Shown piece by piece: positions 43,831 to 47,122 of a DNA stretch of 64,000 nucleotides. Where the stretch lies: NCBI RefSeq assembly GCF_016862935.1, contig NZ_BONX01000064.1:1-64000 (forward strand), given 5' to 3'. A program made the position numbers and the translations under genes. The notes under the pieces are model-generated. The model did no database searches and had not been told where the DNA came from. It saw nothing but the letters and a program-made list of their open reading frames with translations. This DNA is from Plantactinospora mayteni. GTDB lineage: Bacteria > Actinomycetota > Actinomycetes > Mycobacteriales > Micromonosporaceae. The first letter of the stretch is position 1. The number at the start of each line of letters is the position of its first letter.

Positions 43831-44757
43831 ATGGACGTGCTGCCGGTGCAAGCCGAGACCTGGGGCGTACCCGGGCCGGTCTTCCTGACCATCTACCTCA
43901 CGATCGCCGGACTGGTCCTGCTCGGCACCCTGGTCCACCGGCTGGTCGGGTTCGCCGGGCACCGCCCGCCCGGGGCCGAGCGGCTGCACCCGATCCAGCT
44001 CGCCTGGCTGTCCGGCGGTGACCGGCTGTCCGTGTACGCCACGCTCGGCGGGCTGCGCGCCGCCGGGGCGGTCGGCACCACACCGCAGCGCCGGCTGGTG
44101 CAGGCCGGGCCGTTGCCGGTCCAGGCCACGCCGCTCGACGCCGCCGTCCACCAGGCGGCCGGCCAGGGCGTACGCGGGCGAAAGCTCGGCGACGATCCAC
44201 GGGTCCGCACCGCGCTCGCCGACCTGCGGGCCGAGCTGGTCCGGAACGGACTGGCGCTGCCCCGGTCGGCCCGGCCGGTCGCCCGGATCGGGCCGGTACT
44301 GCTGCTCGGGCTGCTGGCGGTCGGCCTGGCCCGGCTGATCGCCGGTCTGGTCGGCGGTCAGCCGGTCGGCTACCTCGGGCTGAGCCTGCTGGTGCTGGCG
44401 CCCACCAGCGTGGTGCTGCTCTGCGTGGTCCCCCACCGGACCCGGGCGGCGAACGCACTCCTGCGCGACCTGCGCCGGCAGCACCAGCACCTCGCGCCCC
44501 GGCACTCGCCCGCCTACGCCACCTACGGGGCGGCCGGTGCGGCGCTGGGGATCGCCCTCTTCGGCACGGCCGCGCTGGTCCAGTTCGACCCGGCGTTCGC
44601 GGTCGAGGCGGAGGTGCAGCGCGCGGTGAGCACACCGGCAGTGGGCGGCAGCGGCGGATCCGGCGGCGGGGACAGCTCCGGTGGCGGCGACGGTTCGGGC
44701 GGCAGTGGCTGCGGTGGTGGTGGCGGGTGCGGTGGGTGCGGCGGGTGCGGCGGATGA
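43831..44757 (+). CDS. TIGR04222 membrane protein with Gly/Cys-rich C-terminal tail
   Basis: 308 residues. Membrane helices lie at about 16-38, 153-175, 179-201 and 232-251. A cytoplasmic loop of about 110 residues between the first two contains 'LAWLSGGDRLSVYATLGGLRAAGAV', the TIGR04222 hallmark. After the last helix the chain becomes almost pure Gly/Ser/Asp and then Gly/Cys, with Cys at 294, 300, 303 and 306 (pattern C-G5-C-GG-C-GG-C-GG). Its stop overlaps the ATG of a DUF692 (MNIO) gene. MNIO enzymes modify cysteines of peptide substrates, so I infer that this tail may be the substrate. The membrane body would then hold a modified metal-binding tail at the cell surface or inside. Confidence 0.85.
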   Translation: MDVLPVQAETWGVPGPVFLTIYLTIAGLVLLGTLVHRLVGFAGHRPPGAERLHPIQLAWLSGGDRLSVYATLGGLRAAGAVGTTPQRRLVQAGPLPVQATPLDAAVHQAAGQGVRGRKLGDDPRVRTALADLRAELVRNGLALPRSARPVARIGPVLLLGLLAVGLARLIAGLVGGQPVGYLGLSLLVLAPTSVVLLCVVPHRTRAANALLRDLRRQHQHLAPRHSPAYATYGAAGAALGIALFGTAALVQFDPAFAVEAEVQRAVSTPAVGGSGGSGGGDSSGGGDGSGGSGCGGGGGCGGCGGCGG

Positions 44758-45662
44758 CGACCGGGGATGGTGTGCGGGCGCCGGAGGTTGGAGACGGTGT
44801 GCCGGTGCCGGCCTCCGGTGTGCCGGTGCCGGCCGGTGTGCGGACACCGGAGGCCGGATACGGCGTGGGGATCGGCTGGCGGCCCGAGATCGCCGGCTTC
44901 GTCGCGGACCTGCCCGGCCTGCGCTTCGTCGAGGTGATCGCCGAGTCGATACCCGCTGCCGGGCCACCGCCGGGCCTCGCCGAACTGCGTGAACGCGGCG
45001 TGACCGTGATACCGCACGGGGTGCGGCTCTCCCTCGGCGGCGCCGACCCGGTCGAGCCTGCTCGGGTACGCCAGTTCGCCCGGGCCGCCGAACTGCTGGA
45101 CGCGCCGCTGGCCAGTGAGCACATCGCCTTCGTCCGGGCCGGCGGGATCGAGGCGGGGCACCTGCTGCCGTTGCCGCGTACCCGGGAGGCGGTCGACGCG
45201 GTGGTCGGGAACGTCGCCCGGGTACGGGCCGAACTCTCCGTCCCACTCGCCCTGGAGCCGATCGCCGCCATCTTCGACTGGCCGGACGACGAACTGGACG
45301 AGGCGGACTTCCTCACCGAGATCCTCGACCGTACCGGCGCGCTGCTGCTGCTGGACATCGCCAACGTCTACGCCAACGCCCGCAACCGGGGTGCCGATCC
45401 GCTCGACCTGCTCGACCGGCTGCCGCTGGAGCGGGTCGGCTACGTACACGTCGCGGGCGGTGCGGCCAGCGACGGGATCTACCACGACACGCACACCGAC
45501 CCGGTCCCGCCGGAGGTACTCGACCTGGTCGCCGAACTCTCCGCCCGGCACCGGCCGCCAGCGCTGCTGCTGGAGCGCGACGGACACTATCCACCGGCCG
45601 CCACCCTGCGCGCCGAACTCGACGCCATCGCCGCCGCCTCCGGCTATCCGAGGGTGACCTGA
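44754..45662 (+). CDS. DUF692 family (MNIO) multinuclear non-haem iron enzyme
   Basis: 302 residues; ATG overlaps the TIGR04222 stop (ATGA). The first 35 residues are low-complexity (VPVPASG-type repeats) and the TIM-barrel starts at 'GVGIGWRPE'. Likely metal ligands of the family are seen: His88 in 'IPHGVRLSLGG', His123 in 'SEHIAF', Glu168 in 'LALEPI', Asp201 in 'LLLDIANVYANA', His232 in 'VHVAGG', Asp245/His247 in 'HDTHTDPVP' and Glu274 in 'LLLERDGHYP'. Three positions differ from the common pattern: EP for EN, D-x-A-N for D-x-N-N and AGG for AGH. Characterised relatives (MbnB, TglH) oxidatively remodel peptide cysteines. The context supports action on the neighbouring Cys-rich tail. Confidence 0.88.
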   Translation: MTTGDGVRAPEVGDGVPVPASGVPVPAGVRTPEAGYGVGIGWRPEIAGFVADLPGLRFVEVIAESIPAAGPPPGLAELRERGVTVIPHGVRLSLGGADPVEPARVRQFARAAELLDAPLASEHIAFVRAGGIEAGHLLPLPRTREAVDAVVGNVARVRAELSVPLALEPIAAIFDWPDDELDEADFLTEILDRTGALLLLDIANVYANARNRGADPLDLLDRLPLERVGYVHVAGGAASDGIYHDTHTDPVPPEVLDLVAELSARHRPPALLLERDGHYPPAATLRAELDAIAAASGYPRVT

Positions 45663-45810
45663 GATGTCGAACACGATCGCCGCCGCCTCCGGTCATCCGG
45701 AGATGAGCGACACGATCGCCTTCCGCCTCCGGCTATCCGCAGGTGACCGGAGATGACTGACCCGATCACCGCCCGCCTCCGGTTGCCCGGCGGTGACCGC
45801 AGATGACCGA
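45621..45810. repeat. Four ~50-bp repeats at the MNIO / next-gene junction
   Basis: Units at 45621-45671, 45672-45710, 45711-45760 and 45761-45810 each hold a copy of the last MNIO codons (GCCTCCGGCTATCCG-like) and an AGATG start signal. The second unit lacks about 11 bases. The real MNIO stop is in the first unit and the ATG of the next gene in the last. Confidence 0.9.
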
Positions 45811-46351
45811 CGAGACCCGGCCTGCGGACCGACCACGATCACGGAACGACCGGAGCAGTCGGGCCGGAGCGGCCGGGACGCTGGCCGACCGGCAGGCCGC
45901 GCTGGTAGCCGCCCTGGTGGCCGGGGCGCCGCTGCCACCGGGCTTCGACGCCCGGCTGGTCGGGGTGGCCCGGTCGGCGCTGCTGCACAAGCGGGCCGGC
46001 GAGGTCGCCCGGCACTGGCCGCTGCTCGCCGCAGGGCACGGCCGGAGCTGGCGGGCCGTCTTCGCGGCCTGGGCGGCCGAGCGCCCGACCTCGGGCTCGG
46101 TCCGGGACGGCTGGGACCTGGCCCGGCACCTGGCCGCCGAGGAGGCGCTGCCGGCGCCCGCCGCCGAGGAACTCGCCGTCCGGGAGGCCGGCTGGCGGTA
46201 CGACGGCCACACGCCCCCGCGCCGACGCCGGCTGCCGGCACTGCGCCGGGCCGGAAACGTGCTGGTGGTGCAGTTCGCCGGCCGGGTACGCATCTGGACC
46301 GCGCCCGGCTCCACCAACCCGAAGATCGACTCGGCGTCGCCCGGGTCATAG
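45803..46351 (+). CDS. SCO6045-like protein, putative MNIO partner
   Basis: 182 residues. The N-terminal part 'DRQAALVAALVAGAPLPPGFDARLVGVARSALLHKRAGEVARHWPLL' followed by 'WRAVFAAWAAERP-T-SGSVRDGWDLARHL' is an all-helical domain similar in layout to DUF2063, the usual partner of DUF692 enzymes (MbnC-like substrate recruitment). The C-terminal part has basic residues and strands ('VLVVQFAGRVRIWTAP'). It follows the MNIO gene in the same direction, separated by tandem copies of the junction. I therefore read it as the recognition subunit. The assignment rests on similarity by eye and on position. Confidence 0.65.
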   Translation: MTDETRPADRPRSRNDRSSRAGAAGTLADRQAALVAALVAGAPLPPGFDARLVGVARSALLHKRAGEVARHWPLLAAGHGRSWRAVFAAWAAERPTSGSVRDGWDLARHLAAEEALPAPAAEELAVREAGWRYDGHTPPRRRRLPALRRAGNVLVVQFAGRVRIWTAPGSTNPKIDSASPGS

Positions 46352-46360
46352 GATCCCGCT

Positions 46361-47122
46361 ATGGATCTCGGACTCGCGGACCGGGTGTACGTGCTGACCG
46401 GCGCATCGAAGGGACTCGGCTTCGCCACCGCACGCGCCCTGGTGGCCGACGGCGCCCGGGTGGTGATCTCGGCCCGGGATCCCGACCAGGTGGCCACGGC
46501 GGCAGAACGACTCGGCCCGGACGACCGGGTGGTCGGGGTCACCGCCGACCTGGCCAGCCCGGACACCGCGACCCGGTTGGTCGACACCGCCCTGGAGCGG
46601 TTCGGCGGGCTCGACGGTGGGCTGGTCTCGGTCGGCGGACCGCCGCCGGGCAGCGCCGCCCAGGCCACCGACGCGCAGTGGCGGGACTCCTTCGAGACCA
46701 TCTTCCTCGGCACGGTCCGGGCCGCCCGGACGATCGCGGCGGCACTGCCGGTCGGCGGCGCGCTCGGCCTGGTGCTCTCCAACTCGGTCCGGGCACCGAT
46801 TCCGGGGCTCGGCATCTCGAACGGGCTGCGGCCGGGGCTGGCCGGGGTGGCCAAGGACATGGCCGACGAGTACGGTCCGCGCGGCGTACGCGTACTCAGC
46901 CTGTTGCCGGGCCGGATTCTCACCGACCGTAACCGGGAACTCTTCGCCGCCAGCGGGGACCCGGAGCGAGCCCGGGCCGACGCGGAGGCGGCGATACCGC
47001 TGCGCCGGATCGGCGACCCGGACGAGTTCGGCCGGGTGGCCGCGTTCGTGCTCTCCCCCGCCGCCAGCTACCTGACCGGGGTCACCATCCCGGTCGACGG
47101 CGGCGCACTGCGGAGCCTCTGA
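46361..47122 (+). CDS. Short-chain dehydrogenase/reductase lacking the usual catalytic Tyr
   Basis: 253 residues. The NAD(P) loop 'LTGASKGLGFATARALVADGARVVISAR' and 'VTADLASPDT' are standard, as is the C-terminal 'GDPDEFGRVAAFVLSPAASYLTGVTIPVDGG'. The expected Y-x-x-x-K is replaced by 'LSNSVRAPIPGLGISNGLRPGLAGVAKDMADEYG', with no Tyr four residues before a Lys. A family of SDRs with this SNS...SN-LR pattern exists, with uncertain catalysis. It starts 9 bases after the SCO6045-like gene, so it is probably in the same transcript as the MNIO cassette. Confidence 0.83.
   Translation: MDLGLADRVYVLTGASKGLGFATARALVADGARVVISARDPDQVATAAERLGPDDRVVGVTADLASPDTATRLVDTALERFGGLDGGLVSVGGPPPGSAAQATDAQWRDSFETIFLGTVRAARTIAAALPVGGALGLVLSNSVRAPIPGLGISNGLRPGLAGVAKDMADEYGPRGVRVLSLLPGRILTDRNRELFAASGDPERARADAEAAIPLRRIGDPDEFGRVAAFVLSPAASYLTGVTIPVDGGALRSL

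Follow-up and report, generated by a model that had tools for sequence, protein, structure and literature searches.

Described MNIO systems and the Plantactinospora locus

Enzymes of the MNIO (DUF692) family act in several described systems together with a partner protein. In methanobactin synthesis (MbnABC), MbnB and MbnC make the copper-chelating groups on the precursor MbnA (PMC12452194). In the bufferins (Buf1/Buf2, BufB, BufC), an MNIO acts on the cysteines of Sec-exported peptides with a DUF2063-type partner, classed as PME-type 1 (PMC12452194). TglHI, of the 3-thiaglutamate system, targets a C-terminal cysteine, a single residue appended to a scaffold peptide in TglA-Cys (PMC10880893). 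Closest to the present case is a proposal, in the main-text parts of Antoine et al. 2025 (PMC12452194) covered here, that TIGR04222 proteins with cysteine-rich C-terminal tails are MNIO substrates, with partners of PME-type 2. This article concerns a locus of that kind in Plantactinospora mayteni, in which a TIGR04222 membrane protein, an MNIO, and a putative partner are encoded one after the other in the 64,000-nucleotide stretch that was analyzed (the window). Its features are as follows.

43831..44757, + strand: TIGR04222 membrane protein, probable substrate (308 amino acids; 130.5 bits against the NCBIfam TIGR04222 cut-off of 43, with 229 of 229 domain positions covered)
44638..44754, + strand: disordered Gly/Ser/Cys tail of that protein (residues 270-308, pLDDT < 50)
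44710..44754, + strand: its four-Cys C-terminal end, CGGGGGCGGCGGCGG, candidate modification sites by sequence
44754..44757, + strand: ATGA overlap of the MNIO ATG (44754-44756) with the TIGR04222 TGA (44755-44757), read from the sequence
44754..45662, + strand: MNIO (DUF692/PF05114) enzyme (302 amino acids; PF05114 262.8 bits against a cut-off of 25; nine of nine TglH iron ligands)
45803..46351, + strand: MNIO partner, divergent DUF2063/MbnC-like, PME-type 2 in the published scheme (182 amino acids; by homology to an MNIO-fused domain and by structural match)

The three genes can be read as one coupled cassette, in which the MNIO and its partner would oxidize the cysteine tail of a membrane-anchored substrate, and we give this reading a probability of about 0.7. 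It draws on observed gene order, the start-stop overlap, the iron site in the alignment, the homology and fusion of the partner, and the co-occurrence and conservation of the tail. In the proposed mechanism, the TIGR04222 protein would be the anchored substrate, and the MNIO would be held with its partner, which in many relatives is fused to it. The cysteines oxidized would be those of the Gly/Ser/Cys tail, with the enzyme probably acting among the C-G-G repeats as far as the C-terminus, and the outcome would be a tail tethered to the membrane whose cysteine-derived groups may bind metal or be redox-active. We infer the modification of the tail, its chemistry, the membrane side on which the tail lies, and its role.

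The locus has in common with those of Antoine et al. 2025 the TIGR04222 family, the MNIO family, the C-proximal Cys-rich tail, and a partner without the DUF2063 signature (PMC12452194). The window protein falls in the TIGR04222 subset that combines a C-proximal Cys-rich Gly/Ser tail with a linked MNIO, and the partner, whose gene follows the MNIO and which lacks the Pfam DUF2063 signature, falls in PME-type 2. One of the TIGR04222 models in that study is from Micromonospora purpureochromogenes and one of its PME-type 2 models is from M. matsumotoense, a species also in our named set (L167). In its main-text parts, at least 10% of TIGR04222 clusters are said to contain PME-type 2 genes and many clusters seem to have no partner, whereas here a partner accompanies 39 of the 39 linked MNIOs examined and is fused to the enzyme C-terminus in 23. 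Within those main-text parts, figures and supplements being outside that scope, there is no mention of an MNIO-partner fusion. This fusion is the main addition made here. The present work further adds that the partner occurs with all linked enzymes examined and is related to DUF2063/MbnC, that the CGG end is fixed, that start and stop codons overlap, that a neighboring SDR gene is left out of the cassette, and that one genus, g23, holds exceptions.

Other described systems resemble the locus in part. Among the NCBIfam MNIO models, BufB scores best against the window enzyme (178.1 bits, below its cut-off of 310); the locus is nevertheless not a bufferin system by precursor and partner, since the window precursor candidate is the TIGR04222 protein, which spans several membrane segments and is paired with a PME-type 2-like partner, and no DUF2063 match was found in the P. 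mayteni genome at E<=0.001. The structural model of the window partner matches the methanobactin partner, whereas the MbnB model matches the window enzyme weakly (27.6 bits against a cut-off of 325). The iron ligands are identical to those of TglH, and the single appended cysteine of that system is replaced by several ribosomally encoded cysteines, then GG.

The original prediction had already read the locus as substrate, enzyme, and partner, and the iron ligands, the partner, and the tie between tail and MNIO all support it. It also held that no characterized system of this form was known, which agrees with the literature found: no report of an experimental test of MNIO action on TIGR04222 proteins was found in the openly licensed literature, and other work may exist. 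The cassette is real, widespread, and uncharacterized, but it is not novel as an arrangement, having already been proposed in print (PMC12452194).

The enzyme and its partner

The overlap between the enzyme start and the membrane protein stop, claimed in the original prediction, is confirmed and probably reflects translational coupling of the two genes. It recurs in a set of named loci, the best 80 of 565 confirmed loci, which is biased to close relatives and spans Micromonospora, Actinoplanes, Actinomadura, Catellatospora, Pseudonocardia, and others; most of the window MNIO's nearest named relatives belong to Micromonospora. A TIGR04222 match is present in all 70 of these loci that hold upstream DNA. 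By candidate starts, 63 of the 70 have an in-frame MNIO ATG or GTG between -10 and +15 nucleotides from the TIGR04222 stop, and 48 show the exact four-base overlap. In Rhodococcus qingshengii (L243 5-494), the MNIO has a tailed TIGR04222 frame not next to it but about 6.5 kb upstream.

The iron ligands of TglH are H71, H107, E151, D184, N187, H216, D229, H231, and E258 (PMC10880893). The window MNIO keeps all nine (HHEDNHDHE), so that the loss of catalytic metal ligands, a prospect raised with the original prediction, was not seen; this is judged from a sequence alignment, not from a structural model, and by that alignment the iron site is intact. The nine ligands are also intact in 39 of 39 TIGR04222-linked MNIOs and in 53 of the 58 MNIO matches examined, and the five with altered or partly matched ligands are all unlinked to TIGR04222. 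A second MNIO of the P. mayteni genome (G000:C87:12804-13595; L012 12807-13616) has intact ligands, falls outside the TIGR04222-linked group, and has no partner domain; it is preceded by an ABC transporter gene (by Pfam) and followed by a 257-amino-acid protein at the contig end.

For the third protein, neither Pfam nor NCBIfam gave a match at E<=0.1, and its label in the original prediction, "SCO6045-like," is not a library result. It is homologous to the domain fused to the MNIO in other Actinomycetes; the fusions occur in genus g23 (probably Streptomyces) and in several genera of family f18. Its gene lies downstream of the MNIO in 80 of the 80 named loci. When 46 aligned members of the family were compared with Pfam DUF2063, one touched the model (E 0.033). 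The partner profile matched eight DUF2063 proteins above all nulls, although the HHalign probability itself was as low as 15.8% and no signal above the controls came from a narrower profile. The top matches of the structural model are chain C of the MbnABC complexes 7dz9 and 7fc0; NGO1945 (3dee) and TglI (8hi7) are not among the matches listed, an absence that excludes nothing. Taken with the co-occurrence and the fusions, these matches support the claim that this helical protein is an MNIO partner related to the DUF2063/MbnC proteins.

The membrane protein and its cysteine tail

The TIGR04222 protein consists of an N-terminal membrane segment, a mixed helix/strand domain, a membrane hairpin, a marginal fourth segment, and the Gly/Ser/Cys tail. 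Its four hydrophobic segments (residues 17-35, 156-174, 182-200, and 234-252) coincide with helices 15-40, 153-175, 180-198, and 229-244 of the AlphaFold (AF2) model, which has an overall pLDDT of 85.9. The four-segment membrane protein with a Gly/Ser run and a cysteine end described in the original prediction is thus borne out by the domain match, the segments, the model, and the C-terminal sequence.

The tail was followed through 71 close relatives from 68 named loci, that is, the 70 minus L243 (match 6.5 kb away) and L173 (broken tail frame). The trio of C-G-G columns is invariant across 42 aligned close relatives, and CGG is the exact C-terminus in 60 of the 71; 1000 shuffles of their last 25 residues gave 4.6 on average and never more than 12. 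Cysteine is absent ahead of the last 75 residues in 59 of the 71. The tail and its CGG end are therefore conserved beyond chance. The spacing between successive cysteines is six residues in 114 of 249 steps. In Verrucosispora sioxanthis (L173 6138-9111), the tail frame is broken inside the Gly/Ser run and stays open across the genes that follow, and in tailed proteins of genus g23 (L094, L092, L077, L090, L095, and L123), a W-C-A or W-C-G precedes the tail or begins it.

Co-occurrence of tail and enzyme

A class search of 246 genomes found TIGR04222 at E<=0.001 in 84 (64 over the cut-off) and an MNIO in 51; in most genomes only 11 TIGR04222 candidates were scored, so misses are possible. With 27 rows dropped, 79 matches outside P. 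mayteni were kept and, with four P. mayteni proteins, 83 were scored for linkage, taken as an MNIO within 5 kb. Shared descent is allowed for in the Fisher tests only at the genus level.

Outside P. mayteni, an MNIO lies within 5 kb of 43 of the 79 matches, on the same strand in 43 of 43. The cysteine tail is present in 29 of the 44 TIGR04222 proteins near an MNIO versus 6 of the 39 others (p 5e-6), which, with its conservation in close relatives, ties the tail to the enzyme. Genomes with an MNIO house 34 of the 35 tailed proteins; in the sole exception (G079), the domain match lies about 510 bases from a contig end on its downstream side, so a neighbor may have been lost. Counted per genome, tail and MNIO occur together in 31, MNIO only in 13, tail only in 1, and neither in 19 (p 1e-6); per genus, the same counts are 16, 1, 1, and 8. 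A general lack of tails beside the MNIO, which the original prediction named as counting against it, is not seen overall; in one genus, g23, however, 10 of the 16 linked loci have only a TIGR04222 protein that lacks tail cysteines.

Competing explanations

Several observations weigh against the cassette as described. In these 10 g23 loci, the only adjoining TIGR04222 paralogue has no tail cysteine, and the MNIO has intact ligands and a fused partner nonetheless, so some g23 enzymes need another or a distant substrate. The other 6 of the 16 are tailed. Genus g23 is probably Streptomyces, since part of one of its loci (L093) has its best matches in named Streptomyces (7 of 11 records; Streptomyces sp. 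BHT-5-2 at 76% identity over 55%) and a chlorite-dismutase-type neighbor is shared; the named Streptomyces record holds enzyme, partner, TIGR04222, and chlorite-dismutase-type genes, with the partner in another frame. Also, two tailed TIGR04222 paralogues of P. mayteni (contigs C73 and C84) have no MNIO nearby and could be trans substrates or unmodified. The tails of these orphans (L008 6487-7470 and L009 6815-7756 (-)) do not end in CGG. A further difficulty is topology: by mean loop charge the tail is predicted to lie outside the cell, beyond the reach of a cytoplasmic enzyme once the protein is inserted, and if it does lie there, modification would have to precede membrane crossing. Of 72 TIGR04222 proteins, 46 have four hydrophobic segments, 16 have three, and 10 have five, and the mean loop charges of the 46 fit N-out, tail-out; Antoine et al. 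2025 likewise predict periplasm-facing tails (PMC12452194). The fourth segment is marginal in the window protein, a 16-residue helix in the structural model with a best 19-mer score of 1.73 (most other tailed proteins, about 0.7-2.5), and is missing from six tailed g23 proteins (0.06-0.95).

Such exceptions lend some weight to the idea that the target of the MNIO and partner is some other peptide or protein, for which TIGR04222 would serve as a membrane scaffold, exporter, or receptor, with a cysteine tail that acts unmodified. The Cys-less g23 loci fit it, and so do the many TIGR04222 proteins that lack MNIO or cysteine; according to the covered parts of the source, more than a quarter lack C-proximal cysteines, and a third of genomes with TIGR04222 lack an MNIO (PMC12452194). 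The clustering of 62 long named loci ignored frames of less than 60 amino acids, so a short cysteine peptide would have been missed, which also counts against a TIGR04222 substrate. Set against this, of the 25 commonest gene clusters in those loci, just three (MNIO, TIGR04222, and partner) are common in the Micromonosporaceae and beyond them alike, and the tail and CGG end are strongly conserved where an MNIO adjoins; we regard a different substrate as unlikely.

A slightly smaller chance falls to a thiol-rich tail that stays unmodified, binding metal or forming disulfides, with the MNIO linked only through shared regulation under metal or redox stress. Gly/Cys tails alone could bind soft metals, and the two orphan paralogues are tailed with no adjacent MNIO, but shared regulation sits poorly with the start-stop overlaps of the named loci and with the near confinement of tailed proteins to MNIO genomes, G079 being near a contig end. 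That the genes are chance neighbors in a GC-rich genome, with cysteine codons a by-product of GGC/TGC repeats, is very improbable: the tail-encoding DNA is indeed repetitive, but strand agreement is complete, every linked MNIO examined has its partner, and the CGG end far exceeds the shuffles and is kept where the ATGA-type overlap is absent (e.g., L185, L188, and L191) and in unlinked proteins of G100, G111, and G198.

Neighboring features

Two other features adjoin the cassette.

45620..45782, + strand: 3.5-copy repeat with a unit of about 49 bp between the enzyme and partner genes, a bystander feature
46361..47122, + strand: SDR-family oxidoreductase, 9 bases after the partner gene, a neighbor judged not core

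By eye, the repeat copies the enzyme 3' end, the stop, and the following start, and it widens the gap to the partner gene. The SDR gene had been suggested as a pathway member, and the survey did not support this. It directly follows the partner gene in 32 of the 80 named loci, and its family is found in 40 of the 62 long loci; only 1 of those is among the 18 classed by title outside the Micromonosporaceae. That locus (L238) is from Catelliglobosispora, which we take to be Micromonosporaceae too. The gene is thus treated as local or lineage synteny.

Possible role and significance

Whether the tail would serve in metal buffering or in thiol/redox defense is not decided by the evidence, and one lead points to oxidative stress. 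In Streptomyces coelicolor, SCO6045 rises 3.01-fold with H2O2 in the wild type and is among 28 genes that lose their response in the hsr deletion mutant (HbpS-SenS-SenR system), alongside cysteine-biosynthesis genes, as given in the covered parts of the source (PMC4991794). SCO6041 is a protoporphyrinogen oxidase and SCO6042 a chlorite dismutase (PMC5069765, in part). In 18 of 19 g23 loci, the MNIO has a gene with a chlorite-dismutase-type (HemQ) motif, self-chosen, at a distance of 2 to 4 gene positions, and the one that was checked is Pfam Chlor_dismutase. Because of this shared neighborhood, SCO6045 is plausibly the MNIO or its direct neighbor.

One could go further and picture a self-contained system: an MNIO-partner complex in the cytoplasm, a single polypeptide in g23 and several f18 genera, would oxidize the Cys-rich tail of a membrane protein that stays anchored throughout, would serve the orphan tailed paralogues as well, and would provide thiol/redox or metal defense at the membrane instead of a secreted metallophore. 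This fuller picture is tentative, and we would give it less than even odds.

If the tail is modified, MNIO chemistry would reach from exported peptides to integral membrane proteins in many Actinomycetes. Many TIGR04222 clusters that looked as if they had no partner would then be accounted for by a hidden partner domain. The fused MNIO-partner enzymes offer a single-polypeptide reagent, which makes MNIO action on TIGR04222 proteins directly testable.
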